DNA of 64,000 bases from Vibrio hepatarius (GTDB lineage Bacteria; Pseudomonadota; Gammaproteobacteria; Enterobacterales; Vibrionaceae). The position numbers and the translations under genes are program-made. Shown in pieces: positions 2-43,133 of this stretch; position 1 is the stretch's first letter, and each line of letters starts with the position of its first letter. The notes below the pieces were generated by a model. The model saw only the letters and a list, made by a program, of their open reading frames with translations. It had not been told where the DNA came from and made no database searches. The stretch is from the NCBI RefSeq assembly GCF_011806575.1, contig NZ_JAATOO010000013.1, positions 62,001 to 126,000 on the forward strand, written 5' to 3'.

Positions 2-889
2 ATGGCCATTTTGTTTTCGCAAATGAACCTATCTTTCTGGGAAATAGTATTTTGGGGGGCATTATGTCAAGGTATATCTCAAGTGGCATTCCCTGCTTTT
101 GCTCAACCATTTGTCCGAAAAATCACAGGGAGTGACAATGTTGCATTTGGTTTCTTTGGTAGTTCAGCAATTTGGTTCTCTAGTTATATTGGTAAGTTCT
201 TCGGAGATAAGAATTACAGTACGGAAGACATCAAAGTACCTCAACACTTTGACTTTATAAAAGATATGGCAATACTAATGAGTATTACGATGTTTATAGT
301 CTTTTTAGTTACGGGTTTGTTCGTTGATAGTGAAGAACTAAATAGTATTATAAAAAAAGGACTGTTTGAATTTGCACTGTTCAATTCATTGACCCTCGTT
401 GTAGGTATTCTTATCCTTCTCCAGGGTGTTCGAATGTTTTTAGCTGAGATTGTACCAGCGTTCAAAGGCATATCTGGCTGGATAGTACCTAATTCAATTC
501 CAGCCCTTGACGTTCCAATCTTTTTTGCATTCGCTCCGGTTGCCGTTACGTTTGGTTTCATTTCTGCTTTGGCTGGAAGTCTTTTGGTTACTTTTATGGG
601 GGGGATCCTTCCTGTTGTCGTACTCCCTTCCGTCATTGGTCTCTTTTTTATGGGTGGGGCTGCCGGTGTATTTGGAAATGCTAGCGGGGGAGTTCGTGGT
701 GCGATCGCCTCTGGATTCATACTAGGGTTTATTTTCAATCTCGTTATCGCATTGGCTTATCCATTAATTGACTTAAGTCAATACGGTATTGCCGGATTAT
801 GGTTCGCATGTACGGATACAATCATTGTCGTGGCATTAATTAAATTAGTCACCGTTATTGGAGGGGCTCTCCTTGATTTGTTTATTTAA
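2..889 (+). CDS. PTS ascorbate-type (UlaA/SgaT-like) EIIC permease, 5' truncated by window
   Basis: C-terminal 295 residues of a polytopic membrane protein of the PTS EIIC family typified by UlaA (ascorbate IIC). The recognisable stretch is around residues 140-200 (GVRMFLAEIVPAFKGIS, then PNSIPALDVPIFF), followed by Gly-rich membrane segments (FMGGAAGVFGNASGG). UlaA proteins are about 450-465 residues, so roughly the first third lies outside the window and the ATG at position 2 is probably internal. Family members import and phosphorylate L-ascorbate or related sugar acids with soluble IIA and IIB partners, which are not seen here. Next to sulfatase and beta-helix genes it may take up a sugar acid or disaccharide, but the substrate is unproven. 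Confidence 0.8.
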   Translation: MAILFSQMNLSFWEIVFWGALCQGISQVAFPAFAQPFVRKITGSDNVAFGFFGSSAIWFSSYIGKFFGDKNYSTEDIKVPQHFDFIKDMAILMSITMFIVFLVTGLFVDSEELNSIIKKGLFEFALFNSLTLVVGILILLQGVRMFLAEIVPAFKGISGWIVPNSIPALDVPIFFAFAPVAVTFGFISALAGSLLVTFMGGILPVVVLPSVIGLFFMGGAAGVFGNASGGVRGAIASGFILGFIFNLVIALAYPLIDLSQYGIAGLWFACTDTIIVVALIKLVTVIGGALLDLFI

Positions 890-3369: not shown

Positions 3370-5067
3370 ATGAAGTTAAGTAAAGTAATCACTATTGTAT
3401 TATTAAGCTTCATTTCTATTGGAGTAGTATATGGAGTTAGTGCTAATGACTCGAGCTCTGCGAAGATTGGGAACCAATATTATATAGATAATTTTAATGG
3501 AAATGATAGCAATAATGGTAATTCTCAGGAAAAAGCATGGAAAACAATGTCACGTATTGAAGAGGAAGTATTTCAACCTGGAGATGAAATTCTATTTAAG
3601 CGTGGTGGTGTTTGGACAGGATCGTTAAATCCTAAAGGGAGTGGTTCATCAAAGAGATCTATTATAATCAGTGCTTATGGCAATGGAAATCGTCCAATTA
3701 TTAATGGTAATGGTGTTGAGAATGTAATTAAATTAAAAAATCAACAGTATTGGGAGATTTCAAATCTAGAAATAACCAACTTTGTAAATGGCGAAATACC
3801 AGCGGAAGCACGCCGAGGTATCCATATTGTTAATGAAAATTACGGAGGCGAGAATCTTTCTGAATCAAATATTAGTACGATTACTGAACTTAAAGGTTTC
3901 TATATTCATGATATGTATATACATGATGTTTTAGGACAAGATAGAAAAGACACCTATGGTAGTTCAGGTATTCAATTTACTGTGCATATTCCAAAAAATA
4001 AGTCTATAAATCAACGAACAACATTTAATGGAATTAAAATAGAAAACAATATACTTAAAAACGTTCAACGATCAGGGATTATACTTATAAGTGACTGGTC
4101 GAGTCGAGACTTAGTAGAAGATATAGATAATAATAAATCAATAAGGCCATGGACTCCAATACTTAATGTTCATATTCGTGGAAATAAACTCTATAATATG
4201 GGGGGGGACGGCATTGTACCACACATGACCGATGGTGCAATTATTGAATATAACTTTATTAATGGCTATAACACGATGTCTACAGGGGCTAATGCTGGAA
4301 TGTGGGTATATAATGGTGATAATGCTTTATTTCAATATAACGAAGTAACTGGTGGGAAATCTACTCGTGATGGGATGCCATGGGATTTTGATCATGGTTC
4401 TCAAGGAGTTACATACCAGTTTAATTATTCGTATAATAACGAAGGTGGGACGCTTTTATTATGCGCTGATGTTGTAGGCAAAGGTGTCCGTAACGGAATT
4501 TTTCGTTATAACCTAAGCTATAATGATTCACACCAAACATTCACCGTCTGCAAGGGAGATAACGTATCAAATATTAACATTTATAATAATATATTCTATT
4601 TAGGTAAAAATATGAATACCAATCCATCTGTAGAACAAGGTGGAAAAGCTAGGGTTAATATTTTTAACAATATATTTGTAAATAATGGGAGAGGGAAATA
4701 TGAAGGTAAAAGCTCATTTAACTATTCAAATAATGTATATTCAGGTGCAAATATAAAAGGGTTAAATACTATCAATGAACCTCATAAAATAATAGCGGAA
4801 CCAATGTTTAAGGACAAATCACATCCAGATGTGTTATTCCCAGGTACTGTATTAAATAAGGATATATTAACACGTGATGTTACAGATTGGTCTGCATTAA
4901 ATGGGTTTATGTTGAGTGAGAATTCACCAGCCATCAATAGCGGGCGGTTTGTTACTTTAGATACAGATAACTATCCGAATAAACATGATATTTTTGGGAA
5001 CCTCCTCTACAATGGAATGCCAGATGTTGGAATTCACGAATATATCGACAACAATACGACTCCGTAG
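3370..5067 (+). CDS. Exported right-handed parallel beta-helix protein (putative polysaccharide lyase)
   Basis: A 565-residue protein with a clear signal peptide (MKLSKVITIVLLSFISIGVV, cleavage likely near VSAND) and a strong GGGAGG-type ribosome-binding site. From residue about 35 it shows the opening typical of right-handed beta-helix enzymes (YYIDNFNGNDSNNG, then PGDEILFKRGGVW), followed by Asn/Gly-rich coils and repeated YNNIF-type turns. It is a paralogue of the protein at 13211-14842: both share GGDGI, NAGMW, GGKSTRDGM/GGKTIRDGM, D-DH and NNEGG blocks in the same order. The fold is common among polysaccharide lyases and glycoside hydrolases, so it may cut the glycan handled by this locus. 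The gene is noticeably more AT-rich than its paralogue and lies between IS remnants, suggesting separate acquisition. Confidence 0.75.
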   Translation: MKLSKVITIVLLSFISIGVVYGVSANDSSSAKIGNQYYIDNFNGNDSNNGNSQEKAWKTMSRIEEEVFQPGDEILFKRGGVWTGSLNPKGSGSSKRSIIISAYGNGNRPIINGNGVENVIKLKNQQYWEISNLEITNFVNGEIPAEARRGIHIVNENYGGENLSESNISTITELKGFYIHDMYIHDVLGQDRKDTYGSSGIQFTVHIPKNKSINQRTTFNGIKIENNILKNVQRSGIILISDWSSRDLVEDIDNNKSIRPWTPILNVHIRGNKLYNMGGDGIVPHMTDGAIIEYNFINGYNTMSTGANAGMWVYNGDNALFQYNEVTGGKSTRDGMPWDFDHGSQGVTYQFNYSYNNEGGTLLLCADVVGKGVRNGIFRYNLSYNDSHQTFTVCKGDNVSNINIYNNIFYLGKNMNTNPSVEQGGKARVNIFNNIFVNNGRGKYEGKSSFNYSNNVYSGANIKGLNTINEPHKIIAEPMFKDKSHPDVLFPGTVLNKDILTRDVTDWSALNGFMLSENSPAINSGRFVTLDTDNYPNKHDIFGNLLYNGMPDVGIHEYIDNNTTP

Positions 5068-6360: not shown

Positions 6361-7845
6361 TTAGTGATTTCCATAGGGGAGATTCAGGCGTTCATACTGT
6401 TCGTTCGGGCTCTCATGTTCCTGCATGAGTTGATACATCAGGCTCAGCATCCGCATTTTTACCTCTTCATCATTTATGGGGAATTTCTGCTGCGGATCGT
6501 TTTCGATGTCAAAGCAGAGGTCGCCCCAGCTTAGATGCTGGTTAAATTGATAGCAACTGTTGTTGGGAAACAAGCCATGATTAGCATTGACTCGTAACAG
6601 AGGGGTGTTTTGGGCGTAGCGGTAGTGGCTGACTAAAGTTTGGTCTGCAAGTTTTAACTCCTCTGGACTGAAAGGCGTGAACAAATGAGAGGGCATTAAT
6701 GTATAGTTATACAGTGGTGCATTCGTTGCGTTCTGAGCGGCGCGCATATAGACAAAACGACCATCCGTAACGTTAACGTGTTTACCAAAGTAGCCAAAGA
6801 GTGCGCCCTCGCGAACGTTCTTGTCATGGGCAATCACCTCCGCGAGATCGTGACCCATCACTTCATCGGGTACTTCTAGACCAAAATAGCTCAGCAAAGT
6901 CGGCATAAGATCAATCGTTTGTACCAGTGACTGCCTTGTTTGATTTTTCTGTTTGGACCTCGGATCCCAAATGAATAACGGAATATTGCATAACTCTTGA
7001 TAGGTTGGCATGTAGTTTTTGCCAAAAAATCCATGTTCGCCGAGCAGGAAGCCGTGATCCGTATTGACGATCAACATCGTGTCTTCCCACAGGTTATGTT
7101 CATCAAGAAAGTCAAGCACTTTCCCCAAATAGTAGTCACACATACTTAGTGCTGCAGCGTAGTGGCGACAAGCGTCTCGTTGAACGCCTTCGCTTTGCTC
7201 TTGAAAAGGGGCATACTTCGGCCAATCGTGTTCGTCTGATCCTAAACCATACGGTTCATAAAAGCGTCTGGGAGCTGTAAACGGCTCATGGGGATCAAAA
7301 TATTCAAGTTGCAGTAACCAATTGTCTGAATGTTTGTTGGCTGTTAAAAACTCCATACCACTTTTAAAGGTGCGTATGTGAGGATGGTTTTGTTCGTCAG
7401 CCGTATAAAGGCGATTGACCCGATCCTGACGTCGAATGTCCCATTTGTATTGAAACCCTTCAACTTGTGGCTTCCACCAGTCACCTTCTTGGCCTCGCAC
7501 CATGTCATAGGACGAAAAACGACTCAGGTAGGTGAGCCCGCCATCATGCCAGTAGTGGCAGTGATCGGTTGAGCAGTGTGAGTAGATATGGCTTTTCATC
7601 AGCAGTTCGGGCAGTGAATGGTCGAACGGTTCTAATGGGCCCCAAGAACGATGTAAAAAGTTATATCGACCAGTATGCATTTCTCTTCTGGCTGGCATAC
7701 ATGGCATGCTTCCAGTATAAGCACGGTCAAATCGCACTGTTTTTTGGGCTAACCGCTTAAAGTTTGGTGTTTTCGTCCAATTATTCCCATAAGCGGAAAG
7801 GTATTTTTTATTGAGAGAGTCAAACATGATGTTAATTGCTTTCAT
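6361..7845 (-). CDS. Sulfatase, Cys-type (formylglycine-dependent), cytoplasmic
   Basis: A 494-residue sulfatase of the alkaline-phosphatase superfamily. The activation motif is C49-M-P-A-R53 inside GSMPCMPARREMHTGR; Cys49 would be oxidised to formylglycine, probably by the maturase at 11871-13115. Further active-site features are Asp9, a DPHEP segment (residues 184-188), the metal-binding Asp263-His264-Gly and Lys276 in HGFFGK. The N-terminus (MKAINIMFDSLNKK) has no signal peptide, so the enzyme should act in the cytoplasm on an imported substrate. The start overlaps the end of tctA by 14 bases, so the two are translationally coupled and the transporter probably delivers the substrate. The sulfate ester cleaved is unknown. 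Confidence 0.9.
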   Translation of the reverse strand: MKAINIMFDSLNKKYLSAYGNNWTKTPNFKRLAQKTVRFDRAYTGSMPCMPARREMHTGRYNFLHRSWGPLEPFDHSLPELLMKSHIYSHCSTDHCHYWHDGGLTYLSRFSSYDMVRGQEGDWWKPQVEGFQYKWDIRRQDRVNRLYTADEQNHPHIRTFKSGMEFLTANKHSDNWLLQLEYFDPHEPFTAPRRFYEPYGLGSDEHDWPKYAPFQEQSEGVQRDACRHYAAALSMCDYYLGKVLDFLDEHNLWEDTMLIVNTDHGFLLGEHGFFGKNYMPTYQELCNIPLFIWDPRSKQKNQTRQSLVQTIDLMPTLLSYFGLEVPDEVMGHDLAEVIAHDKNVREGALFGYFGKHVNVTDGRFVYMRAAQNATNAPLYNYTLMPSHLFTPFSPEELKLADQTLVSHYRYAQNTPLLRVNANHGLFPNNSCYQFNQHLSWGDLCFDIENDPQQKFPINDEEVKMRMLSLMYQLMQEHESPNEQYERLNLPYGNH

Positions 7846-9337
7846 AAATCACTTTCCTTTTTTGTAGATTAATCAGGTAATAAACAATGGCGGCGATCAC
7901 CAAAACAAGGTTGACGATGAGAATGGTGGTACCGATAGGGCGTTCGAGAAAAATGCCAAACCCATTTTGAGAGATGAGCAAAGAGCGTCTGAGGTTTCCT
8001 TCTGCAATTGGCCCTAAGATGAAACCAATCACAATCGGCGCGAGGGGAAATCCAGATTGACGGAGCAGATAACCAACAACCCCAAGTGCCAGCATTACCC
8101 AAAGATCAAAGGTGGCAGACTGCAACGAAAACGTGCCAAGAATAGAAAGGATAAGGACGATCGGGAGCAGTATACTTTTTTTCAGTTTGAGCACAGAGAC
8201 AAAAAGCGGTGTCATCAGCAGGCCAAGAAGCAAGAGGAACACATTGCTGAGTAAATAAGAGAGAAAAACCCCTCCCACAATATCGCCACTCAAGGCAAAC
8301 AGCTGAGGTCCGGGTTGCAACCCTAACAACATTAAAGCACTCATCAACACGGCGCAGGAGGCACCCCCGGAAACGGCCAGCGCCAAAGTAGGAATCATGG
8401 CACCGCCGCAACAGGCATTGTTTGAAGACTCGGTTGTGACAACACCCCCTTCAGCGCCTTTCCCGTATTCTTCCGGCGTTTTAGAGAGTGAACGAGTAAC
8501 CGCATAAGACGCAAATGAAGAGATGATGCCACTTGCACCGGGTATGGCACCGAAGAATGTTCCGATTACACTCGAGCGAACTAAATTGGTTTTGTGTTTG
8601 AACACCAGCATCAGGCTGTGAAAGGAGACTTTCACCTTTTCGATTTTAGGTTTGAAATTGAGATCGCCGCTCTGAACCTGAATCATGACTTCGGAAATCG
8701 CAAAAAGACCAACCACGACCGAGCCAATGTTCAATCCGCTGAGTAAATCGCTAGACCCAAATGTAAACCGCTCGGCCATAGAGAGTTGATCAGTGCCGAT
8801 GGTCGCCAGCAGTAAACCTAAGCAACCACTCATTAACCCTCTTACTGTCGATTCGCTCGACACAATAGTAATGGATAACAAACCAGTGATGGATAACGCG
8901 AAATATTCTGGCGGGCCAAAATTCATTGCGACGGAAGCCAGCATCGGCGTAAAAAAGATGAGCATGATTCCGCCGATTAGTCCTCCCAAAGCGGAAGCGG
9001 AAATCGCGATACCAATCGCATCGGCAGAACGGCCTTTTTTGGCCATGGGGTAACCATCCAACAGTGTTGCGGCTGCAAGTGGCGTACCCGGTATCCGGAG
9101 CAATATGGCTGATATTGCCCCTCCGCAGGAACCACCAATGAATATTGCGACCAGCAGACCAATGCCCGCGACAGGGGGTAATTGATAGGCGAAGGGAAGC
9201 AAAAGAATCATTCCCATCAGCGGGCCTAAACCGGGGAACACGCCGACCAATAGCCCCAAAACTGTACCGAGAACCACATTAAGGAAAACGGTAATGGTCA
9301 GGAACTGATCTCCCCCTTCGAACATGATTTCGTACAT
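7832..9337 (-). CDS. Tripartite tricarboxylate transporter (TTT), large permease subunit, TctA family
   Basis: A 501-residue polytopic protein with the TctA signatures GVFPGLGPLMGMILLLPF near residue 33 and a repeated Gly/Pro-rich motif near residue 260 (FGAIPGASGIISSF). About 11-12 hydrophobic segments are visible. It forms the transport pore with the small TctB-type subunit just upstream and is fed by the periplasmic TctC-type protein. Known TTT substrates are carboxylates such as citrate, tartrate and aromatic acids. A stop-start overlap with the sulfatase strongly suggests an anionic sulfated substrate here, possibly an unsaturated uronate released by a lyase. Start ATG at 9337 has GAGGTAAACGC upstream. 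Confidence 0.92.
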   Translation of the reverse strand: MYEIMFEGGDQFLTITVFLNVVLGTVLGLLVGVFPGLGPLMGMILLLPFAYQLPPVAGIGLLVAIFIGGSCGGAISAILLRIPGTPLAAATLLDGYPMAKKGRSADAIGIAISASALGGLIGGIMLIFFTPMLASVAMNFGPPEYFALSITGLLSITIVSSESTVRGLMSGCLGLLLATIGTDQLSMAERFTFGSSDLLSGLNIGSVVVGLFAISEVMIQVQSGDLNFKPKIEKVKVSFHSLMLVFKHKTNLVRSSVIGTFFGAIPGASGIISSFASYAVTRSLSKTPEEYGKGAEGGVVTTESSNNACCGGAMIPTLALAVSGGASCAVLMSALMLLGLQPGPQLFALSGDIVGGVFLSYLLSNVFLLLLGLLMTPLFVSVLKLKKSILLPIVLILSILGTFSLQSATFDLWVMLALGVVGYLLRQSGFPLAPIVIGFILGPIAEGNLRRSLLISQNGFGIFLERPIGTTILIVNLVLVIAAIVYYLINLQKRKVIYESN

Positions 9338-9346
9338 GCGTTTACC

Positions 9347-9853
9347 TCACCAGACTGACGGATAGAACCCTATGGGTAAAACAACGTTCAACCACTCCTG
9401 AAAAATTACATAAAGTGCCGCGGTGATGACGACAGATCCCAACAGGCACTTTGCGTTTGTTCCAGCATGTAACGCCTTAAACAGGAGAAATAGGTAGAAA
9501 GGCGTGAGCAATAAGTAGCCGACAGAAGTCAGCAAATATTGATAGGCGACGGTTAACCCCACGACAGAGAACACCGTCACCAGTTTGCTTCGCGCGGAGG
9601 GGAGCGTGTCTGGCAATGAGACTTCTGCCTCTTTGTTTGCCCGAAGAAACCATGTGTCGATCACATCCAGACACAGAAACAATGCCATTAATATTACAAC
9701 GTAATAGGGATACATTCCGGCGTTAGCCAGCGGTCCACCGCTGGCTGCGCCTTGCTCGGCAAGATTCGTCTCAATTTGCTGAATAACAAGCACAATCACG
9801 AACAGGAAAATACAGTAAGCGCCAATCGACGTCGTCTTAAACTGCGTGACCAT
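9347..9853 (-). CDS. Tripartite tricarboxylate transporter, small membrane subunit, TctB family
   Basis: About 168 residues with four hydrophobic segments (one near the N-terminus, one near 55, paired segments near 100-135), the length and layout of TctB-family proteins. I place the start at the ATG at 9853 because GGGGAG lies seven bases upstream; an upstream TTG at 9877 would overlap tctC but lacks a good ribosome-binding site. It sits between tctC (ends 9858) and tctA (starts 9337), the usual operon order for this family, and should associate with TctA in the inner membrane. Confidence 0.85.
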   Translation of the reverse strand: MVTQFKTTSIGAYCIFLFVIVLVIQQIETNLAEQGAASGGPLANAGMYPYYVVILMALFLCLDVIDTWFLRANKEAEVSLPDTLPSARSKLVTVFSVVGLTVAYQYLLTSVGYLLLTPFYLFLLFKALHAGTNAKCLLGSVVITAALYVIFQEWLNVVLPIGFYPSVW

Positions 9854-9857
9854 GAGG

Positions 9858-10850
9858 TTACTCCCCAGCTTTTTCAAGCTGATCTTGTTCCCAATAAATG
9901 GCGGTTTGCGCAGTTTTGAGTTGGTCGCTCACTTTCGCTGCGGACTCTTCGTATTTCTCCGGAGGGAGCAACAGTGGCAAAAATCCAAGTTTGGCCAACT
10001 GTTGTTGAAGCTCTGGCTTCTCAATGGCCTTCTTCATTGCCGCACGTAAAATGTCAACAACGTCATCTGGGGTGTCTTTGCGCACAACAAACCAGTTCCA
10101 GCCTACGGCACTAAGGCCACTTAATGCCAAATCAATCCCGTAATCGTCCAGGGTCGGGCCGTTATCAAACATGGCGGCCACTTTTTTATCGTTGTGCAAC
10201 ACCACAAGAGGTTTAAATGCATCGGCATTACTTCGGTACGTGGTCGGATCATTGAAGGTGAAATCTAAAAGCCCGCTGCGCAGGTCTTTGTGCGCGTCCC
10301 CATCTTGGCTGTAGGGAATGTTTCTGGCGTAAATCCCTTGTGAGCGCAACAACTGCGCCATGATCATGTGGGGCAGATTATTGTATGAGCCGGAGGAATA
10401 ACGTAATTTGCCCGGATTCTTTTTGGCATACTCGATAAAGCTCGGTAAATCGTGCCAGCGTGTCTCGTTTTTTCTGACCGCAATAGCAAAAGGAACCTGC
10501 GTGGCGGACCAGAGCGGTTTAAAGTCTTTATAGGTGTAATCACCATTCCCCAGATTAGGTTGAAGAACAAGGTTTGCGACCCAGGCGTCGATAATGGTAT
10601 AGCCATCTGCTGGCTTATTGAGTGCCGTTTCTATGGCTTTCACGCCCGCGCCACCCGGCGTGGAAATGACATTGATGTTCACACCCAGTTCTTTGGCCAT
10701 GGCGTCCGAAATAAGCTGGGTTACCGCGTACGATGTGCCAGGACCCCATGGAAAAAAGTTTTCAATGTTTCTTTTTGGGAAGGTGTTGGCAGCCACGCCA
10801 AACGAAAAACAGACTGCCAGAATGGTTGGGATAAATCGGTCAATCATCAT
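9858..10850 (-). CDS. Tripartite tricarboxylate transporter substrate-binding protein, TctC/Bug family
   Basis: A 330-residue periplasmic solute receptor with an N-terminal signal peptide (hydrophobic core TILAVCFSFGVAA). The Bug-family layout is clear: an FFPWGPGTSYAVTQLISDAM opening, VISTPGGAGVKAIE near residue 60, GKLRYSSGSYNNLPHM near 155, and a C-terminal ATM-like helix. Binding proteins of this family capture small organic acids in a flytrap cleft. The first codons overlap the end of lysR by 11 bases, so regulator and receptor are co-transcribed. Substrate unknown; probably the acidic sulfated product desulfated by the sulfatase. Confidence 0.9.
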   Translation of the reverse strand: MMIDRFIPTILAVCFSFGVAANTFPKRNIENFFPWGPGTSYAVTQLISDAMAKELGVNINVISTPGGAGVKAIETALNKPADGYTIIDAWVANLVLQPNLGNGDYTYKDFKPLWSATQVPFAIAVRKNETRWHDLPSFIEYAKKNPGKLRYSSGSYNNLPHMIMAQLLRSQGIYARNIPYSQDGDAHKDLRSGLLDFTFNDPTTYRSNADAFKPLVVLHNDKKVAAMFDNGPTLDDYGIDLALSGLSAVGWNWFVVRKDTPDDVVDILRAAMKKAIEKPELQQQLAKLGFLPLLLPPEKYEESAAKVSDQLKTAQTAIYWEQDQLEKAGE

Positions 10851-11757
10851 TTTTTGATACCCTCTTTTTGTCCACTTGTTCGCTCAAACATTCAATAAAA
10901 ATTCGCTGAGCGTCGGTGGGTGTGGTGTCTTTTCTTATCCATGCACCACTTGTAAATTGCCAGTGCAGTCCGTTGCATTTAAGTGGCTTTAATCCATTTA
11001 ATAACGCTTTGTTTTGCAGCCTGTCAGGTAAGACAAGAATGTGTTCTGACTCACTGACCACCGCAGGAATGCTCTCCCAGTAAGCACTGCGAAAAGCAAT
11101 ATTGGCAGGAGGTAACTGATGTTCATGGAAAAAGTGATTGATAACCTGTGCAACATCGTTGGACTGAGTGAGGATCACCCACGGATAAGGCTGTAGCATT
11201 TCGATGCTGACGGATTTCTCTGACTGCAAAGGGTGCGTTGAGGCCGTGACTAACGACACCGAACTTTCCCACAAAGCAATGAAATCAAATTCTCCGAATG
11301 AACGGGCAGGTAAGGTATCACTGGCGACAACCACATCCAGCTCGGATACAGAAAGTTGTTGTAACATCTCTTCCTGAGAGCCGGCGTGAAGCTCGAATGA
11401 AACTTCAGGCATTGCGCGATAAAGTGCGAGTACGGCCTCTGGCAACATTTCCGCTGCCCATACTGGCCCCGCACCAACACGTAGCCGAGTGCCTCGGCCT
11501 GCCGTTGCCGCTTTTAGCTCTTCTTCCAACAAGAAATGCTCATGCTCAATGCGCTTCGCTCGGTTCACGAGAATTTGCCCGAAATCCGTGATTTTTACGC
11601 CTTTTGATGTTCGTTCCAAAATTGGAACGCCATAACTCTCTTCAAGTCTCTGCATATTCCTTGTCAAAGCAGGCTGGCTGATGCCCAGCTGAAGGCTGGC
11701 ATGTTTGAGCGAACGACTTTTCGAGACGACGATAAGCTGAAGCAATAACCTATTCAT
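10840..11757 (-). CDS. LysR-family transcriptional regulator of the TTT-sulfatase operon
   Basis: A 305-residue LTTR: N-terminal winged HTH (residues about 1-60, SRSLKHASLQLGISQPALTR), then a co-inducer-binding domain beginning near residue 90 (RLRVGAGPVWAAEMLPEA). AAGGAGATAG immediately before ATG 11757 fixes the start. It is the first gene of the minus-strand operon lysR-tctC-tctB-tctA-sulfatase, an arrangement in which the regulator also controls itself. The divergent intergenic region towards the maturase gene is the likely operator. The inducer is probably the transported acid. Confidence 0.88.
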   Translation of the reverse strand: MNRLLLQLIVVSKSRSLKHASLQLGISQPALTRNMQRLEESYGVPILERTSKGVKITDFGQILVNRAKRIEHEHFLLEEELKAATAGRGTRLRVGAGPVWAAEMLPEAVLALYRAMPEVSFELHAGSQEEMLQQLSVSELDVVVASDTLPARSFGEFDFIALWESSVSLVTASTHPLQSEKSVSIEMLQPYPWVILTQSNDVAQVINHFFHEHQLPPANIAFRSAYWESIPAVVSESEHILVLPDRLQNKALLNGLKPLKCNGLHWQFTSGAWIRKDTTPTDAQRIFIECLSEQVDKKRVSKNDD

Positions 11758-11870
11758 TAACTATCTCCTTGATGAATTAACTTAAAGGTATATCATTAAA
11801 ATCGGTTAATCTGTGACCAGTTGTTGATTTTTGGCCATATCCTTCACAACAGAGAATGGAGGTGCCTGCA
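11758..11870. promoter_or_regulatory. Divergent regulatory region lysR / sulfatase maturase
   Basis: This is the only non-coding stretch between the divergent lysR-led operon and the maturase gene, so promoters for both units must lie here. It is AT-rich (ATCATTAAAATCGGTTAATC near 11791-11810). I could not assign -35/-10 boxes or a clear LysR T-N11-A site with confidence. Confidence 0.4.
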
Positions 11871-13115
11871 ATGGATCGAGGCAAAAAAAATCACGCCAAT
11901 CGCCCCCTCAATGTGATGGCGAAGCCGTGTGGTGCAACGTGCAACATTCAGTGTGAGTACTGCTTTTATCTGGAAAAACAGTGTCTGTATAAAGACACAA
12001 ATCAGCACGTGATGTCTGAAAGCACATTGGAACGCTTTATTGCTCAGAACATAGAGGCCAATGACGACGATGACGTGAGTTTTGTCTGGCAGGGAGGAGA
12101 GCCAACGTTAATCGGGCTCGATTTTTATCGCCGCGTCGTTCAAATTCAAAATAAATATAAGGGCAAGAAAACCACTACTAATTTTTTACAGTCGAATGGT
12201 ATTGCGCTTAATGATTCTTGGTGCCGTTTCTTAAAAGAAAATCGCTTTATTGTGGGTATTTCTATCGATGGGCCAAAGCACCTTCATGATTTATATCGAC
12301 GAACAAAAACAAACACCGGTACGTTCGATAAGGTAATGACGAGTATTCGTCGATTAAAAAAATACAAAATTAAATTTAATACGCTGACGGTGATTAATAA
12401 TGACAATGTTAACTTCCCGTTGGAAATCTATGATTTTTTAAAATCAATCGGTTCGAGTTATCTCCAGTTTATTCCACTCGTTGAACGCAAATCAGAAATA
12501 CCAACCCAAGAGGGGCTATATTTTGTCGACCCTGACCATCACCAAGCAAAAGTCACTCATTGGTCTGTGCCCCCAACTAAATACGGCCAGTTTCTTACTC
12601 GCATCTTTGATGAGTGGGTAATGAAGGATGTTGGTAACGTGTATGTGCAAATGTTTGAAGTGACTTTCGCGGCATGGCGAGGTTTAGGGAATGCTTTGTG
12701 CGTGTTCTCGGACAGTTGCCAGGGTTATGTGGCGATGGAAGCGAATGGTGATGTCTACGCCTGCGACCATTTTGTCTACCCTCACTATTTACTGGGCAAT
12801 ATTCATCAATCCTCATTACAAGAAATCGCCACCAGTGAACAGGCGGTCTCATTTGGAAAAAACAAATCCGCGCTGAATCACCAATGTCGTAGTTGTAAAT
12901 TTTTACCCATCTGCAACGGGGGGTGCCCTAAACATCGGTTTGCCATTTCAAGTGGTGGTTTTGCCCATCACAATTATTTCTGTGAATCCTATTTTCATTT
13001 TTATCGCCATGTCACTTGGGCAATGAATGTGATGAGCGATATGGTGGAAAATAATATTCCTATTGAATACATAATGGCGCTGTCTCGCCAGAAAGTAATA
13101 GGTGTGAATGAGTGA
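11871..13115 (+). CDS. Anaerobic sulfatase-maturating enzyme (anSME), radical SAM/SPASM protein
   Basis: A 414-residue radical SAM enzyme that converts the active-site Cys (or Ser) of sulfatases into formylglycine. The SAM [4Fe-4S] motif is C24-x3-C28-x2-C31 (CNIQCEYC). The C-terminal SPASM domain binds two further clusters through spaced cysteines: CVFSDSC, ACDHFVYPHYLLGNI, CRSCKFLPICNGGCPKHR and a final FCESY. GGEPTL (about residue 75) is the usual SAM-binding GGEP. I start at the second ATG because GGAGG lies eight bases before it; the first ATG at 11856 overlaps that site. It lies opposite the lysR-sulfatase operon, matching its partner substrate. anSME works without oxygen, so maturation does not depend on aerobic FGE. 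Confidence 0.92.
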   Translation: MDRGKKNHANRPLNVMAKPCGATCNIQCEYCFYLEKQCLYKDTNQHVMSESTLERFIAQNIEANDDDDVSFVWQGGEPTLIGLDFYRRVVQIQNKYKGKKTTTNFLQSNGIALNDSWCRFLKENRFIVGISIDGPKHLHDLYRRTKTNTGTFDKVMTSIRRLKKYKIKFNTLTVINNDNVNFPLEIYDFLKSIGSSYLQFIPLVERKSEIPTQEGLYFVDPDHHQAKVTHWSVPPTKYGQFLTRIFDEWVMKDVGNVYVQMFEVTFAAWRGLGNALCVFSDSCQGYVAMEANGDVYACDHFVYPHYLLGNIHQSSLQEIATSEQAVSFGKNKSALNHQCRSCKFLPICNGGCPKHRFAISSGGFAHHNYFCESYFHFYRHVTWAMNVMSDMVENNIPIEYIMALSRQKVIGVNE

Positions 13116-13210
13116 AAATTTATTTAATAAGGAGGTGAGGATGCCAATATTAAAATTAATTGAGTAGCAAGCAATATTTATATTATGGCCCGAATAAAAA
13201 GGAGTCAGTG

Positions 13211-14842
13211 ATGAACATTAAACGAGAAAATAATACTGAAGAAAGAAAAGTTAAACGTCGGAAAGATTGTTATTTTGTTCTCTTTCTATCGATATTTTGG
13301 GTTATCTATGGCAAGGGAATATCAGCGTCAGAAAAAAACGCTGGAAATGAAATCTATGTCGATTGCTTACAAGACCAGGACGGTGACGGAACGCTCGCTT
13401 CTCCAATCAATAATCTTGAAACACTCAACCGCATGGCATTGAACGCTGGTGATACGGTGCGCTTTAAAAAGGGCACCCGATGCCGAGGCAGCGTTGTCGC
13501 GAGCACCTCTGGTACCGCTGGCGCTGCTATCGTGTATGAAGATTATGGAACCGCGAAAAATCGCCCGCATATTGAAGCCAATGGACAAGAGCAAGCGTTT
13601 TGGGTTCAGGACGCAAGTTGGGTCACCGTTAAAAATCTGGCCCTTTCGGCGCCCGGAGATGGAAAGCAGCCAAGAAGAGGGGTCTGGGTAACCGCAGAGG
13701 ACACGGGTGAGCACAAGGGTATCCAACTGCTTAATTTAGATATTACAAATGTGCGTGGGCAAATGCCGTCGACAGTAGAGGGGGGGCAGCATGGCACGGG
13801 CAAATACGCCAACGCGTCAGGCGGTATTATTGTGGAAGCAAGAGGAGCGTCGGTACCCACCTGGTTCAATGGGTTGGAGATTAAGAACAACCGTATTTCT
13901 GATGTTGACCGACAAGGGATTTATACTTGGTCGAACTGGTGCCAGCGCCCAGAGCTGGTGCCTTTTTGGTATGAGCTGTGTACCGCGCAGTGGCAGCCGT
14001 TTGAAAACACGACCATTAGCGGCAATCAACTGTCTAACATTGGTGGCGATGGCATTGCACCGATGACCACCAAAAGTGGGCGTGTAGAACACAACACGTT
14101 AGCGGGATTTAATCTTCGATCTCAGTCTCCCAATGCTGGTATGTGGTCAGCAAACAGTGACGATGTGGTGTATCAATACAACGTGACTTCTGGAGGAAAA
14201 ACGATAAGAGATGGCATGGCGTATGATGTGGACCATTCAACCAATGGCATTGTTTATCAGTACAATATCTCGTGGAACAATGAGGGGGGCTTTATGCTGA
14301 TTTGCCCTTATGGCGACTTAAAAAAAGGACGAGCGAGCGATTTTGTTGTTCGGTATAACTTGTCTGTGGATGATAGAACTCGGACGTTCCAAGTGTGCGG
14401 AGGCGGCGTGTTCAACGGACAAATTTACAACAATACGTTTTTACTTCCCACTGATGCTTCAAACACGCCAAGAGTTCATACTATCCTAGTGGAACCGGCG
14501 ACGCGAGATAATGTGGTTGAATTGATGTTTTCTAACAATATTTTCATGCAGTTAGAAAAAGGCATCGAACCTGAATGGAAGTATGACGACACCTCCATTC
14601 AGGGAAGCCATAACCTCTACTTTAATGCGCCTCCCATGGAAAGCGACGGTTACTTTTTCACGGAAGCCCCGAAATTGACGCAACCAGGTTTGGCTAATTA
14701 CCAGTGGCAAGATTACGTACCATTGAGAGATTCCGTCACGGTTTCTCAAGGCGTCGAAGTAGACGATAGCGTAGACACCGATGCGTTGAATCAGGCCGTG
14801 AGCTCGCCACCGACTATAGGAGCCTTAGAACCTAGTCAGTAG
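13211..14842 (+). CDS. Exported right-handed parallel beta-helix protein, paralogue of 3370-5067
   Basis: A 543-residue protein that starts at the ATG preceded by AAAAAGGAGTCAGTG. It has a basic N-terminus and one hydrophobic segment (CYFVLFLSIFWVIYGKGISA), so export is likely. The body shows the beta-helix opening (IYVDCLQDQDGDGTL, then AGDTVRFKKGTRC) and the blocks shared with the paralogue: GGDGIAPM, NAGMW, GGKTIRDGM, D-VDH and NNEGG. Shared residues cluster in the central coils where beta-helix lyases keep the active site. It lacks the AT bias of the first copy. It follows the maturase gene by about 95 bases and probably shares its transcript. Function is inferred as glycan cleavage; no catalytic triad could be assigned. 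Confidence 0.75.
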   Translation: MNIKRENNTEERKVKRRKDCYFVLFLSIFWVIYGKGISASEKNAGNEIYVDCLQDQDGDGTLASPINNLETLNRMALNAGDTVRFKKGTRCRGSVVASTSGTAGAAIVYEDYGTAKNRPHIEANGQEQAFWVQDASWVTVKNLALSAPGDGKQPRRGVWVTAEDTGEHKGIQLLNLDITNVRGQMPSTVEGGQHGTGKYANASGGIIVEARGASVPTWFNGLEIKNNRISDVDRQGIYTWSNWCQRPELVPFWYELCTAQWQPFENTTISGNQLSNIGGDGIAPMTTKSGRVEHNTLAGFNLRSQSPNAGMWSANSDDVVYQYNVTSGGKTIRDGMAYDVDHSTNGIVYQYNISWNNEGGFMLICPYGDLKKGRASDFVVRYNLSVDDRTRTFQVCGGGVFNGQIYNNTFLLPTDASNTPRVHTILVEPATRDNVVELMFSNNIFMQLEKGIEPEWKYDDTSIQGSHNLYFNAPPMESDGYFFTEAPKLTQPGLANYQWQDYVPLRDSVTVSQGVEVDDSVDTDALNQAVSSPPTIGALEPSQ

Positions 14843-14935: not shown

Positions 14936-15265
14936 ATGAAAATGGGCAAAGAACCGGACTATCGATTTTCGCTTGCCAATGAACGTACATTTTTAGCTTG
15001 GATTCGAACGTCGCTTGCTTTTTTAATTGCCGCGCTTGGTATTGACTTGTTTGAAACTACTCATGTGTTGCCAAGATATATGACTTTTCTAGGATCTGGG
15101 TTTGCGCTTATTGCGATATGTACGGGCGTGTGGGCACTTATTCGTTGGTATTTGAATGAAAGAGCTATGCGATTGGATGCACCATTTTGTTACAGTAGTA
15201 GTTTGTTCGTGTTGGTCTTGTCCCTGGTTATACTCAGTTCCATTGCGGCGTTCTTTATATTATGA
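14936..15265 (+). CDS. yidH: DUF202 inner-membrane protein, YidH-like
   Basis: A 109-residue protein with three hydrophobic segments and the DUF202 N-terminal signature (LANERTFLAWIRTSLAFLIA). GAGGAAAAGCAT precedes the ATG. Its stop overlaps the next DUF202 gene by four bases (ATGA), so the two are coupled. In Escherichia coli the homologous pair yidG-yidH lies beside a sulfatase gene (yidJ) and the maturase-like yidF, so this neighbourhood is conserved. Biochemical function is unknown. Confidence 0.85.
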   Translation: MKMGKEPDYRFSLANERTFLAWIRTSLAFLIAALGIDLFETTHVLPRYMTFLGSGFALIAICTGVWALIRWYLNERAMRLDAPFCYSSSLFVLVLSLVILSSIAAFFIL

Positions 15266-15561
15266 GCAAAGCAATGGAACGAGAGCGGGGGTTACAGAGT
15301 GAGCGTACAACGTTGGCATGGTCACGAAGTGCATTATTGTTTGTTACAAGCGCTGTAATGGTGTTGCGCTTTGGTCTGCCGTCTGTGCTGAATTTAGTTG
15401 CGCTGACATTTGGACTCTGTGTGCTCTTAACTGGTGTACACAATAGACAGAATGAGCTTTTGAAAAGTGGAAAACCACTCGTCAATATGCAGCTAATGAT
15501 CAGGCATGCCTTTCTGTCTTCGTTTGTTTCGCTGGCTGCATTATGGGTTTTTCTTGTATGA
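15262..15561 (+). CDS. yidG: DUF202 inner-membrane protein, YidG-like
   Basis: A 99-residue protein with three hydrophobic segments and a DUF202 motif (LQSERTTLAWSRSALLFVTS). It overlaps the preceding yidH-like gene by four bases. Pairs of such proteins may form a heteromeric membrane complex. Its link with sulfatase genes in enterobacteria suggests an accessory role in sulfated-compound metabolism, but nothing in the sequence shows a catalytic site. Confidence 0.83.
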   Translation: MSKAMERERGLQSERTTLAWSRSALLFVTSAVMVLRFGLPSVLNLVALTFGLCVLLTGVHNRQNELLKSGKPLVNMQLMIRHAFLSSFVSLAALWVFLV

Positions 15562-20979: not shown

Positions 20980-21759
20980 TCATGACTCATCCTCCTTAAT
21001 CACACGAGTCGCGTTGATGGCACTGGCTTTTGGGTTGTGACCAGCGAACTCGACAAAGTGAGAGCGGATCCCTAAGACTCGTTCACCCAAGCGTAAACGG
21101 TACTCACTCGCGACGGAGTGGATCACGATGGTGTCTTGTTCAATGTGGTAGTTCACCAAGGACTCTTTGCCGTCGGCGTTGAGTTGGTAAATCACGGGTA
21201 ACTCCGCATTGTTAGAAAACTTCATGCACGTGAATCGCCCATCGTCCCATGCATAGGCCGGTGCCAATTCTTGATCTCCCCATTTAACGTAACGGAAGTT
21301 GTCGTTGCCATCGCTACAAGGTGGTTTCAGTGTCGCGGTGCTGGTGGGTTTAGGATTGGGATAGCGCATCACCACCACATAAAACGGTTGCTGACTCGTG
21401 AATAATTCGAATGCGTATGTGCGTCCCCCATCACTGACGATCGTTAGGTTCGTGTTGGGTTGGGTTGGGTTGGGTTGCGTTGCTTGGGGTTTAAAGAACA
21501 CGTTATTGCCACGTACATTGAACCCCCATGCTGTCGCATCGCCCATCGCTAAACCAGAATGCTCACCAAGGATGGTTTCATTCTTATCAAGCTGGATGAG
21601 GGTCGCGACACCCGCTTGAGTGCGTATCGCAATCACATCACTCGGATCATAGTCGGCGTAAACAATGCGACGATCTTTGCCTAGATGCGTCGGCAACGTT
21701 AAAGCATGACTAGAAAATGCGAGCAAACAAGTGAGGCATATCACTAGTGGTTTTATCAT
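20980..21759 (-). CDS. virB9: VirB9-like outer-membrane core component of type IV secretion
   Basis: A 259-residue protein with a signal peptide (VICLTCLLAFSSHALTL) and the VirB9/TraO architecture: N-terminal beta domain (RIVYADYDPSDVIAIRTQAG), a variable linker with QPNPTQPNTN, and a C-terminal domain with NFRYVKWG and the AWDDGRFTCMKFSN segment typical of the VirB7-binding region. Its start overlaps virB8. The linker is encoded partly by a TTGGG pentanucleotide repeat (21455-21474). Its stop overlaps an ATG that runs out after 11 codons, where virB10 should start. Confidence 0.88.
   Translation of the reverse strand: MIKPLVICLTCLLAFSSHALTLPTHLGKDRRIVYADYDPSDVIAIRTQAGVATLIQLDKNETILGEHSGLAMGDATAWGFNVRGNNVFFKPQATQPNPTQPNTNLTIVSDGGRTYAFELFTSQQPFYVVVMRYPNPKPTSTATLKPPCSDGNDNFRYVKWGDQELAPAYAWDDGRFTCMKFSNNAELPVIYQLNADGKESLVNYHIEQDTIVIHSVASEYRLRLGERVLGIRSHFVEFAGHNPKASAINATRVIKEDES
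21455..21474. repeat. Pentanucleotide repeat TTGGG x4 inside virB9
   Basis: Four perfect TTGGG units in the coding sequence encode the PNPTQPN-type linker on the minus strand. A gain or loss of one unit would shift the frame. Confidence 0.85.
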
Positions 21760-22511
21760 TGGATCGCCCTGTTTTCTTGATAACTGGTGACTTGGAAACC
21801 AAGCGGGTTGAGTTGTCGTTCTGACTCCTTGGTGATTTCCTTGAGGTAATCAAACGTTATGGTGGCGCTCCATTTGGTGGGTCGATAACTGCTGTCGGGG
21901 CTATCGTCACTATTGAGCACTACTTTAGTAAACGACACCTGCGCCAGCCTTTGATCCTGGCGAGTCGGCAGAAATGAAATCGCGACGTCTTCTAAGTGGA
22001 TTTTTTTATAGTCTTTAAACACGGCAACAGGCGAGTTTTTTGCACGCAATTGCCCACTGTAGGCATTGAAAACATCATCACGACTCGTGAGCTTGATGTA
22101 GTCGAACGCATCCTGAACGGTCTGCCATTGGTAGGAGCCGCGAGTGGTGACGTAACGATGTAGCCAATGCTTATCCAGCACTTCGCCGTACGTCATTTGC
22201 TTGGCGTCCGAAAGCGGATGGATCAGCTGGGTCACGCCGGTTTGTGGGTCGATAAAAAGCAGCCGATAATCTACGGTTTTAAGCGGCATCATCACCACAA
22301 TCGCGAACCCCAGTAGTAGCGTGAGTACACCTGATCCCGCCGTGATTATCCATGCAGATTTCGCCGATTGCTTGGCGATTTCGACTCGGTCTTGCTCGAA
22401 CTTTTTGATCTCCTTGAGGTAGAGATCAGCTTGTTTTTGATGTTTGGCACTGGGTGTTTTTTCAGCCTTGGCGTGATTGCGTTCCAAAGCAGAATCAATG
22501 GGTGTCCTCAT
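21756..22511 (-). CDS. virB8: VirB8-like inner-membrane core component of type IV secretion
   Basis: A 251-residue bitopic protein: charged cytoplasmic N-terminus, one TM segment (AWIITAGSGVLTLLLGFAIV, about residues 54-73) and a periplasmic NTF2-like domain (LFIDPQTGVTQ; YVTTRGSYQWQTVQDAFDYIKL; WSATITFDY). The length and layout fit VirB8. GAGGCGCCCA precedes the ATG; the start overlaps the end of virB7 and the stop overlaps the virB9 start. The reading frame is intact. Confidence 0.88.
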   Translation of the reverse strand: MRTPIDSALERNHAKAEKTPSAKHQKQADLYLKEIKKFEQDRVEIAKQSAKSAWIITAGSGVLTLLLGFAIVVMMPLKTVDYRLLFIDPQTGVTQLIHPLSDAKQMTYGEVLDKHWLHRYVTTRGSYQWQTVQDAFDYIKLTSRDDVFNAYSGQLRAKNSPVAVFKDYKKIHLEDVAISFLPTRQDQRLAQVSFTKVVLNSDDSPDSSYRPTKWSATITFDYLKEITKESERQLNPLGFQVTSYQENRAIQ

Positions 22512-22660
22512 TGGGCGCCTCTTTGGGGGTACAAATCTTCAAGATTAACTTTGGGCGGGTTTACCGGGGTGACGTCACCCGCGGGCTCTGGTGGAGGTGG
22601 CGGGGTACTAGCGCAGCCCACACTCAAACACGCCATCAATAAAAGGGGGAACGTCTTCAT
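22508..22660 (-). CDS. virB7: VirB7-like small lipoprotein
   Basis: A 50-residue lipoprotein: signal peptide MKTFPLLLMACLSVG followed by lipobox Cys, then a Pro-rich segment and a conserved-looking end (KVNLEDLYPQRG). I start at ATG 22660, preceded by AAAAGGAACTGA, rather than an upstream in-frame codon. The position between virB6 and virB8 and the small size identify it as VirB7, the outer-membrane anchor that binds VirB9. Confidence 0.75.
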   Translation of the reverse strand: MKTFPLLLMACLSVGCASTPPPPPEPAGDVTPVNPPKVNLEDLYPQRGAQ

Positions 22661-22774
22661 TTCAGTTCCTTTTAAAATCCAATAAAGCGCGTTGCGCGCC
22701 GTGCTATTCAAGGTGAGAGACTAGGGCGGTGTTAGCCCGGTCGAATTCGATTTTTGCTTTGGTCGTAGAGAAAT

Positions 22775-23598
22775 TTAGCACCATTGTGTGTGCGCTTTCT
22801 TACACGTTTCGCTGCGTTTTGTCGCACCTGTTGTTAGGTCACTTAGGCTACGCATTCCCATGCCCATATTGGTAACTAAGCCATTAATGCCGGGACCACC
22901 GGAAAGGGAAGCGGTCATGACGGGAATTTGAACAGAAATGAAAATACAGCAGCCAAAAAGAATGAGCGTCATCAAACACGAACCGAACGAGACGTTTTCA
23001 TGCCCGCCGAGCACATCGTTGATCGTCAGATCGAATACACTAAAAGCAAGAGGATAGACAATCGTGAGTAACACGTAGTTCAAACACTGACCTACCCATG
23101 ATTGAAACATCGCTCGGGTAGAGGGAAAGAAGGCGAACATGATAAACAGAGGCCCAAGGATCAGAAGAAACCCCATCATTATTTTTGCGACCAGTAGGTA
23201 GGCGGTTGCGATAAGTAGAAATGGTACATACCCAAATATCACAAGTACCAACAAGATAATCATCAGAAAGGAATCTCCCCAAGAAGCAGCGATACCGAAA
23301 GATACGTTATCCCACAGGCTTTCAATTTTGAGCAGCATAGTGTCGAACATGCCTTGGAGGGCTGCGCCACTGTCGCCTGTCGATGACGTCAAATGGTTCG
23401 CTACCGTATTCCCAGTATTCAATACCATCGGGACGATAGCGGTCATATACCACGATGTGTCGAAAGCAACGGTGGTACAAAGCGCCAATGAACCGATGCC
23501 CCTATCAACGGAGTGATCACATCCGCAAAAAGAACAACCATTGTTCCGATGTTGTCTGTGACGATGGTTGTCACGAAGTTAAATAATTGGTCAAACAT
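22775..23598 (-). pseudogene. virB6: virB6 pseudogene (frameshift near 23490)
   Basis: ATG 23598, preceded by AAGGATGCGCT, gives MFDQLFNFVTTIVTDNIGT and then VITPLIGAS before the frame is lost near 23490. The next frame continues ALCTTVAFDTSWYMTAI and 230 further residues with five to six hydrophobic segments (IILLVLVIFGYVPFLL, LLILGPLFIMFAFFP), ending at 22775. Together they make a VirB6/TrbL-type polytopic channel protein; one base change in length explains the break. The C-terminus is also short and may be damaged. Confidence 0.8.
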
Positions 23599-23663
23599 AG
23601 CGCATCCTTAGGAAGTGACTCCTGATTCGTCAGTGGCCGCATTTTGTCTGTAATGGCATGCTT

Positions 23664-24327
23664 TTACGCGCTTTTTAAAGGAATGCCGTCGCCAAACACT
23701 TGTTGTTTTAGCTGCAAACTTCGTTGTTGGGCCTCAAGCGTTTGTTGTTGGTCCAGCATTGATGAGATCCATCATGCGTTGCTCGTTTTGCATCCGCATG
23801 GTTTCAAAGTGAATGCTGTTGGCTAAGTATTCTTTGGCCGCGGGCGTAGTTGCCGTTCCGAATTGTGCGAGGAGTTGACTCATGCGTTTGTTGCGTTCCG
23901 TGTTCCGTTCGTAAAGCATTTCTTGGAAACGAAGTTGCTTCAATTGCAGATCGTAGCGCCTCTGTATGATTGGGGTGTCGGAGTACAGGTCGAATTCAGA
24001 ACGTAAGTCAGATATATCGTCAATCGCGTCATACAAATCACGGTAAGCGCGCAGGTCAATTACATCGTTTAAGTTTGGGTCGTTGAGAATTTCTTCAAAC
24101 CCATAGTGGCCTTCTACCATCGACTTGTAGTGCTCGGCTTGGCGTTTCAACTGGATGAGACGATTGCGAGCTTCGCTGATTGACTGGGCAAACTCTTGCG
24201 CTCGCTGTGCGCTATCGGCCACCATTTGAGTGATGCCTGCGACGTCAACAACGGGAATTCCCGATGCGAGTGTCGATGCGCTGATTGCTAACGTCACACA
24301 CATCGCAAATGAGGTTCGCTTAAGCAT
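23664..24327 (-). pseudogene. virB5: virB5 pseudogene (C-terminal frameshift near 23755)
   Basis: ATG 24327 with AGGAGGTAATC upstream gives a signal peptide (CVTLAISASTLASG) and a VirB5-type helical protein (QMVADSAQRAQEFAQSI; EARNRLIQLKRQAEHYKSM) ending prematurely at MMDLINAGPTTNA. In the next frame the missing tail is readable as QTLEAQQRSLQLKQQVFGDG followed by IPLKSA and a stop at 23664. A single-base indel at about 23755 explains this. VirB5 is a minor pilus component at the pilus tip. Confidence 0.82.
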
Positions 24328-24329
24328 GA

Positions 24330-36379: not shown

Positions 36380-36397
36380 AAAGTGCATTTCCTTTGT

Positions 36398-37741: not shown

Positions 37742-38080
37742 GTACTTCTCCAATTAGCCTGACGAGTTAAACCATGGATAAGCAAATTAACATTTAAATC
37801 ACACACTCTTGATGGAAATGCGGTTTTGTTTACTTATCTTTAGTTTAAACAAACACTTATATTGTGTTTATTGGCTTTAGCTGGTTTGTTTTGTGTGTTT
37901 TTGTTAACTATTTTTTAACAGTCGATTCTATTTTGTTCAATATAATGAGCGGAAATATCGCTTTTATTGGCCAAAAAAGTAGCAGAGATCATGTTTTTGT
38001 TACATTTTTAAATATCTGTGTTGATAATTTTGTACATGGTTTGTAGTTTAAATGTTAAATAAATCGAACACGGAAGTATC
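37742..38080. promoter_or_regulatory. puuA-puuD divergent regulatory region
   Basis: This 339-bp gap between the two divergent operons is AT-rich with several possible -10 hexamers. It contains a PuuR-box-like site and a separate 6-bp dyad AAACAC-N7-GTGTTT at 37851-37869. No coding sequence is supported. Confidence 0.7.
37937..37951. promoter_or_regulatory. PuuR-box-like operator
   Basis: TCAATATAATGAGCG matches 11 of 15 bases of the E. coli PuuR site as I recall it (AAAATATAATGAACA), and a PuuR-type regulator is encoded in the plus-strand operon. Probable operator for feedback by putrescine. Confidence 0.55.
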
Positions 38081-38827: not shown

Positions 38828-38844
38828 CGTCTGGAGCTGCATGA

Positions 38845-39402: not shown

Positions 39403-39437
39403 GTGGCGCTTGCCTTGTGTGATCACAAGGAGAGCGT

Positions 39438-40922: not shown

Positions 40923-40959
40923 GCCTGCTGACGATTACGATAAATAAAGGAATAGCTCT

Positions 40960-42237: not shown

Positions 42238-42254
42238 GAGATAAGGAATATCCA

Positions 42255-43121: not shown

Positions 43122-43133
43122 AGGGGCGTTAAA

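Follow-up and report, generated by a model that had tools for sequence, protein, structure and literature searches.

Introduction

Use of a sulfated sugar by means of an intracellular sulfatase is known from Bifidobacterium breve UCC2003, which has gene clusters for N-acetylglucosamine-6-sulfate (GlcNAc-6-sulfate) (Egan et al. 2016, cited in PMC7326374). In this study, we analysed a stretch of 64,000 nucleotides from Vibrio hepatarius (GCF_011806575.1, contig NZ_JAATOO010000013.1, positions 62,001 to 126,000 of the forward strand; hereafter the window), in which the genes of a tripartite tricarboxylate transporter (TTT), a sulfatase without a signal peptide and an anaerobic sulfatase maturase (anSME) lie together. 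The module follows the plan of the B. breve one, an intracellular sulfatase for a sulfated sugar, but its importer differs, and it also includes a GH136-like enzyme and a pair of DUF202 proteins. In B. breve, a Gram-positive host unlike Vibrio, the maturase and the transporter are reportedly clustered with the sulfatase, and the transporter is said not to be a TTT. We know of no GH136-like or DUF202 genes in the B. breve module. An earlier sequence-only reading of the window had stated that no characterised system is built exactly this way. This agrees with a literature listing for TTT and sulfatases, but the plan without a TTT is thus known from B. breve. Because many well-studied carbohydrate sulfatases are active elsewhere than in the cytosol, uptake of intact sulfated sugars by an organism is easily overlooked.

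The yidF-yidG-yidH-yidJ-yidK-yidL locus of Escherichia coli K-12 resembles the window in having a signal-less sulfatase (YidJ), a transporter, a DUF202 pair (YidG/YidH) and a divergent regulator. However, YidK is a sodium:solute symporter (PF00474) and not a TTT, and YidJ is only about 23% identical to the window sulfatase. In one genome that matches the yid locus (G698, locus L043), a full anSME lies beyond the DUF202 pair. Among the TTT systems, the citrate transporter TctCBA has tctC, tctB and tctA together in the same gene order as in the window. SlcHFG, a TTT for 3-sulfolactate, has an organosulfur anion as its ligand, which is a likeness to the sulfated ligand proposed here, and its gene order differs from tctC-tctB-tctA (PMC5812351). 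Sulfolactate is a sulfonate with a carboxylate, whereas the ligand proposed here is a sugar sulfate ester. To our knowledge, no sulfatase is known with the SlcHFG or TctCBA systems.

Gene order of the locus

The genes lysR-tctC-tctB-tctA-sulfatase occupy 6361-11757 of the window in this order on the minus strand of a 4.7-Mb genome, and neighbouring genes overlap or are separated by a few bases. The first gene (10840..11757) encodes a LysR regulator (PF03466 substrate domain, 100 bits; PF00126, 53 bits). It is followed by the genes for the periplasmic binding protein TctC (9858..10850; PF03401, 88 bits), the small membrane subunit TctB (9347..9877; PF07331, 54 bits), the large membrane subunit TctA (7832..9337; PF01970, 454 bits) and a sulfatase of 494 residues (6361..7845; PF00884, 135 bits). 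The anSME gene (11856..13115; TIGR03942, 486 bits, cutoff 349) diverges on the plus strand. All six genes lie where the sequence-only reading had placed them and pass curated cutoffs. The overlaps are 11 bp for lysR and tctC, 20 bp for tctC and tctB (given a TTG start of tctB) and 14 bp for tctA and the sulfatase gene, and the gap between tctB and tctA is 9 bp. This bears out the view that the genes overlap or abut. The sulfatase had also been called fused with the transporter, which is not literally so because the genes overlap and the proteins are separate. Comparison with the V. mimicus copy suggests that the true start of tctB is probably 8 codons (24 bp) inside.

The lysR and anSME genes are separated by 98 bp (11758..11855). 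In an alignment of the three TTT loci of the window, V. mimicus and Vibrio gelatinilyticus, this divergent region contains the common core TAA-n-TTAA-n-G-n-TATA, which may be a LysR site. The start of the anSME is likely to be at 11871. The end of the locus at 13115, as first proposed, is too early, since a GH136-like gene (13160..14842) and a DUF202 pair follow on the strand of the maturase. The DUF202 genes overlap by 4 bp and encode an A-type protein (14936..15265, plus strand; PDYRFSLANERTFLAWIRT; PF02656, 58 bits) and a B-type protein (15262..15561, plus strand; GLQSERTTLAWSRS; PF02656, 38 bits, above the cutoff), the B type being assigned by alignment.

Sulfatase and maturase

The gene at 6361..7845 is assigned by domain, motif and fold model to the S1 family of formylglycine sulfatases, and hydrolysis of a sulfate ester is predicted for its product. 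Residues 49-59 (CMPARREMHTG) fit the maturation motif C/S-x-P/A-x-R-x4-T-G. The N-terminus, MKAINIMFDSL, is already the first strand of the fold and has no space for a signal peptide, as the sequence-only reading had noticed. Signal peptides were scored by our own hydrophobicity rule, not by SignalP.

The model, built from 31 sequences (pLDDT 80.5, pTM 0.88), has the S1 (alkaline-phosphatase-like) fold. An earlier model from 9 sequences (pLDDT 64.7) was set aside and not used for the fold search. Nearly all of the best 50 entries listed are S1-type enzymes, with Z of about 31-36 over 340-400 residues. The top match is an S1_7 sulfatase (Z 36), and ulvan sulfatase, an S1_46 sulfatase and iduronate-2-sulfatase are all at Z 34-36. 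Assignment of a substrate or subfamily from the fold was dropped because S1_7, S1_46 and S1_25 sulfatases, phosphonate hydrolases and iduronate-2-sulfatase lie within about 2.5 Z units.

The maturase has radical SAM (PF04055) and SPASM (PF13186) domains. It had been described as dedicated to this sulfatase. The gene does diverge from the operon; the dedication itself is an interpretation, and at least five anSME genes are present in this genome (9 of 13 candidates scored).

A proposed import-then-desulfate module

We propose, with a probability of about one half, that the cluster is an import-then-desulfate module, in which the TTT imports a sulfated sugar of the glucose or GlcNAc type that is desulfated in the cytosol. 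Small sulfated sugars would be freed outside the cell by the GH136-like enzyme, if secreted, or by another organism. Judging from their families, TctC would recognise the anionic group of the sulfated sugar in the periplasm, and TctAB would carry the sugar inward. The maturase would convert Cys49 of the sulfatase to formylglycine in the cytosol, activity being predicted from the motif and the presence of the maturase, and the matured enzyme, as its motif and fold suggest, would cut sulfate off inside the cell. The freed sugar would then be phosphorylated by a kinase and enter central metabolism, and the sulfate would be used or let out, perhaps via the DUF202 pair. The LysR protein is the probable regulator of both divergent arms. 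If the TTT carries a sulfated sugar, this family, known for transport of small acids, would have a wider range of ligands than so far described.

A close relative of the sulfatase (E ≤ 1e-40) is present in at least 7 of 227 genomes of the genus, the window's genome included; all counts from genome searches are lower bounds. The TTT operon was found in three of the seven, namely the window's genome, V. gelatinilyticus ZSDZ34 and V. mimicus CAIM 602. Gene order is the same in all three, and the divergent maturase is kept. Identities to the window are 69% (sulfatase), 71% (TctA), 68% (TctC), 58% (LysR), 54% (maturase) and 39% (TctB) in V. gelatinilyticus, and 76-94% over the genes of the unit in V. 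mimicus, where the sulfatase gene is broken (L030 8850-10335). In V. gelatinilyticus, a NagK-like ROK kinase gene starts 10 bp past the sulfatase gene and is followed by a DUF202 pair.

The other four Vibrio genomes have a sulfatase of 586-587 residues, 45-49% identical to that of the window, beside a glucose-family EIICB of the phosphotransferase system (PTS). These loci also carry an aldose epimerase, an RpiR regulator, a DUF202 pair and an anSME; the family scan was made on one of them (L032), and the others were compared by BLAST, hidden Markov models or N-termini. No TctA was found in the available stretches around the sulfatase in these four genomes. The same PTS layout stands beside a sulfatase relative in a genome of another family (G766). 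The relatives beside a PTS keep the signal-less start. Thus, by sequence comparison, the importer is exchanged between TTT and PTS while the sulfatase stays cytosolic. Uptake by the TTT followed by cytosolic desulfation, the route that the sequence-only reading had suggested, is the best supported explanation, in view of the operon in two more Vibrio genomes and the cytosolic start kept by the relatives. Sulfolactate as a known TTT ligand (PMC5812351) and the B. breve example (PMC7326374) were also counted in favour of the proposal.

In a sample of the class, at least 2 of 369 genomes, the window's included, match the sulfatase at E 1e-30. The other (G343, locus L035) has a TctA fragment, an enolase-superfamily gene and a 46%-identical sulfatase in succession on a 3-kb contig. 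A contig scan with two query sequences gave 4 loci; it relied on just two short patterns, and a lack of hits elsewhere therefore carries little weight. On a contig of an uncultured bacterium (L038 917-3849), two signal-less sulfatase genes follow each other, and the product of the first is 50% identical to the window sulfatase. In V. mimicus (L037 14519-21474), three GH92 mannosidase-like genes lie downstream behind a fructose-type PTS.

Nature of the proposed ligand

The sugar is most likely of the glucose or N-acetylglucosamine type, judging from gene content. This rests on the neighbours of the relatives, that is, the NagK-like kinase, the glucose-type PTS and the aldose epimerase, and not on the window itself; the GH136-like enzyme was also counted for a neutral sugar. 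In the PTS branch, the phosphate would be placed on O6, as the mode of the PTS family suggests, so the sulfate should be elsewhere on the sugar.

The GH136-like protein is a right-handed beta-helix protein with a hydrophobic N-terminal stretch, and it is probably secreted. Its closest solved relative is a lacto-N-biosidase (6kqs, E 1.7e-17), and the matched stretches are confined to the beta-helix part of 6kqs (residues 239-637). Asp351 and Asp358 align with a pair of Asp residues of 6kqs that are likewise seven residues apart. The catalytic residues of lacto-N-biosidase are D568 (acid/base) and D575 (nucleophile) (PMC7335108); the numbering of the 6kqs chain differs from this by two, an offset that we inferred. 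The window protein thus shares the beta-helix domain and the spaced Asp pair with the lacto-N-biosidases ErLnb136 and LnbX, whereas overall similarity is weak at that E value. A second GH136-like beta-helix gene lies at 3370-5067 on the plus strand. Its product is 34% identical over 378 residues to that of 13160..14842, and its best solved relative is 7v6m (E 2.5e-51).

Several observations weigh against the module as proposed. Carboxylates dominate the TTT ligands known so far, according to the review PMC5812351. GH136 enzymes require a helper domain or subunit, GH136I, for activity (PMC7335108); GH136I was not seen in the window protein, and the genome was not searched for it. The NagK-like kinase, at 332 bits, is below its NCBIfam cutoff of 380 and occurs in one of the three TTT loci; the window locus itself yielded no sugar kinase gene. 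The fold comparison of the sulfatase gives no substrate discrimination. The enolase-superfamily genes in L035 and in V. gelatinilyticus (L036) fit a sugar acid better, and for this reason we moved weight from the neutral sugar to an acid.

The association itself is also uncommon. A search for sulfatases near tctA had been proposed as a check. The arrangement recurs in V. gelatinilyticus, V. mimicus and the genomes G710 and G734, but in a phylum sample of 150 genomes none of the 108 TctA genes listed from 36 other genomes has a PF00884 match (E 1e-15) closer than 5 kb, the smallest distances being 8 and 10 kb. Here, up to 10 TctA candidates per genome were scored, and positions were compared by eye. 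In G710 and G734, more distant signal-less sulfatases are divergent from tctCBA (L050, L086, L089); those of L050 and L086 are Cys-type sulfatases of 441 residues, both of a single type and from the same genus. No anSME match was listed for G710, the genome of L050, in a search that gives a lower bound. The V. hepatarius genome has a second TTT neighbourhood (contig C47, L094 13-5527) with tctCBA, an aldehyde dehydrogenase gene and, near the contig end, a sulfatase gene. The C47 sulfatase, 1.6 kb beyond TctA, has a signal peptide, which also speaks against the proposal because it means that a TTT does not imply a cytosolic sulfatase. TTT-sulfatase adjacency is recurrent but rare.

The same route with a sulfated acid as the ligand, a sulfated uronate or another sugar acid whose carboxylate docks in TctC, is a tentative alternative that we consider possible but not probable. 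Docking would then proceed as in citrate or glutamate receptors. According to the review PMC5812351, carboxylates are the ligands of most known TTT receptors, and galactarate/glucarate is linked with a TTT of Halomonas. The ligands named there are citrate, amino acids, aromatic and aliphatic diacids and sulfolactate, and, apart from nicotinic acid, they seem to carry a pair of carboxylic groups or else groups like sulfate or amide (PMC5812351). The window TctC, on the other hand, has no Asp in its first ligand loop, where five solved TctC proteins in a sequence alignment have one; this may count against an acid ligand and hints at an unusual one. Gene neighbourhoods point both ways. The enolase-superfamily gene of L035 lies between the TctA fragment and the 46%-identical sulfatase, and in V. 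gelatinilyticus (L036 18849-21478) genes for an iron-containing alcohol dehydrogenase, a dihydrodipicolinate synthase-family protein and an enolase-superfamily protein lie 7-10 kb past the sulfatase, beyond transposase-like genes, and are possibly a sugar-acid pathway. Genes of these three kinds are typical of sugar-acid pathways. However, the PTS partners of the sulfatase family and the NagK-like kinase speak for a neutral backbone, and the annotated genes of the window locus include no uronate-catabolism gene. Iduronate-2-sulfatase and ulvan sulfatase, both among the best fold matches, were counted for an acid. On the unsaturated sulfated uronate that the sequence-only reading had offered as an example, the evidence is thus divided, with kinase, PTS, epimerase and GH136-like enzyme on one side and the enolase-superfamily, alcohol dehydrogenase and dihydrodipicolinate synthase-family genes on the other.

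It is quite unlikely that the operon scavenges sulfur, with imported sulfate esters feeding cysteine synthesis and the carbon part being incidental. A cytosolic sulfatase would yield sulfate where assimilation starts, and CysB and Cbl are LysR-type regulators. However, the window LysR scores at most 73.5 bits against the CysB-family and Cbl models (cutoffs of at least 402), the neighbours of the homologues are carbon genes (PTS, epimerase and kinase), and sulfate is plentiful in seawater. We regard a third alternative as very unlikely, namely that the enzyme acts chiefly on phosphonates or phosphate esters, as do some hydrolases of its superfamily, and that the TTT imports a phosphonate-like acid. 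In its favour, the solved structures most similar in sequence are those of Silicibacter SpAS1/SpAS2, phosphonate monoester hydrolases are near neighbours in both sequence and fold, and the NCBIfam PehA model gives 120 bits (below its cutoff of 900). Against it, an anSME lies beside the sulfatase in the window and in relatives, and S1 carbohydrate sulfatases reach equally high fold scores.

The DUF202 pair

Among 197 genomes of the order, at least 17 DUF202 pairs were found in at least 16 genomes, together with four genes listed singly. In an alignment of 45 DUF202 proteins, each pair with both members aligned consists of one A form and one B form. With the window excluded, an S1 sulfatase gene is found at up to 5 kb from 5 of 16 pairs (0.08 expected), an anSME gene from 6 of 16 (0.05 expected) and at least one of the two from 8 of 16; the expected numbers assume random placement with a Poisson distribution and are not tree-aware.

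The sulfatases near DUF202 genes are also predicted to be cytosolic by our rule. All 7 sulfatases with DUF202 within 7.2 kb are signal-less, as against 11 of 40 others (Fisher p 0.0005), and without the window the linked ones are 6 of 6 (p 0.001). The set of 47 sulfatases comes from 19 DUF202-bearing genomes and comprises 46 PF00884 matches longer than 930 bp and the truncated one of C47; matches below this size, which to judge from their length belong mostly to other subfamilies, were left out. Signal peptides of L091 and L094 were called by eye, the start of L090 is doubtful, and a signal-less sulfatase at 8.7 kb from DUF202 (G009) was counted as unlinked. In the same way we considered the TTT as a mark of cytosolic sulfatases. 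This claim was dropped, with a TTT beside 4 of 18 signal-less sulfatases, two of the four being those of L050 and L086, and 1 of 29 with a signal peptide (p 0.06); the count before the C47 sulfatase was added was 4/18 against 0/28 (p 0.019).

Among solved structures, the DUF202 A protein of the window matches Vtc1 of the yeast vacuolar transporter chaperone (VTC) complex (E 1e-4). The ANER motif of the A protein has its Arg aligned with Arg31 of Vtc1. Vtc1 is a DUF202-type membrane protein with a channel-lining Arg, and Arg31 is at the narrowest part of the polyphosphate channel (PMC9911596). The window pair differs from VTC in that it has no polymerase or SPX domain and consists of two bacterial genes, A and B, and the similarity is weak. 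The A/B pair might then be a minimal relative of the VTC channel that serves as the exit for sulfate freed by the cytosolic sulfatase, an idea that we hold to be rather unlikely. If it is true, import, desulfation and efflux would form one module with an interchangeable importer, which is a TTT, a PTS or a sodium symporter. A widespread domain of unknown function would gain a role, with yidGH of E. coli as a test case. We know of no demonstration of transport by bacterial DUF202 A/B proteins.

The distribution of the pairs argues against such an exit. Eight of the 16 pairs have neither a sulfatase nor an anSME gene within 5 kb, and the same is true of an 18th pair (G168), whose B gene is below the threshold. 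None of the three pairs outside the order is near a sulfatase. A sulfatase that does carry a signal peptide is situated on the far side of the maturase in L032 and L034, at 2.1 kb from the pair, and no DUF202 gene was found in the available stretches around the V. mimicus copy. DUF202 as a marker of sulfatases only was rejected, because pairs also occur by GlvC and GH4, other PTS and unrelated genes. In one genome outside the order (G414), three of four single DUF202 genes lie within 3 kb of a sulfatase gene.

Neighbouring genes

A sugar cluster lies upstream of the locus (L021 10870-16889, window 2-889, plus strand) and contains genes for IIA, a sorbose/mannose-family IIB, IIC and IID, and an ascorbate/GAT-type IIC of the PTS, and for two SIS sugar isomerases. 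It is followed at 1098-2453 by a gene for a protein of 451 residues without a Pfam match. A conjugation or type IV secretion cluster is located nearby at 20980-26123 on the minus strand, with VirB8, CagX/VirB9, TrbL/VirB6, type IV secretion-family and CagE/TrbE/VirB genes. The genes at 34904-46984 encode glutamine-synthetase-like, aldehyde dehydrogenase, FAD oxidoreductase, peptidylarginine/agmatine-deiminase-like and class III aminotransferase proteins, and they probably serve polyamine catabolism.

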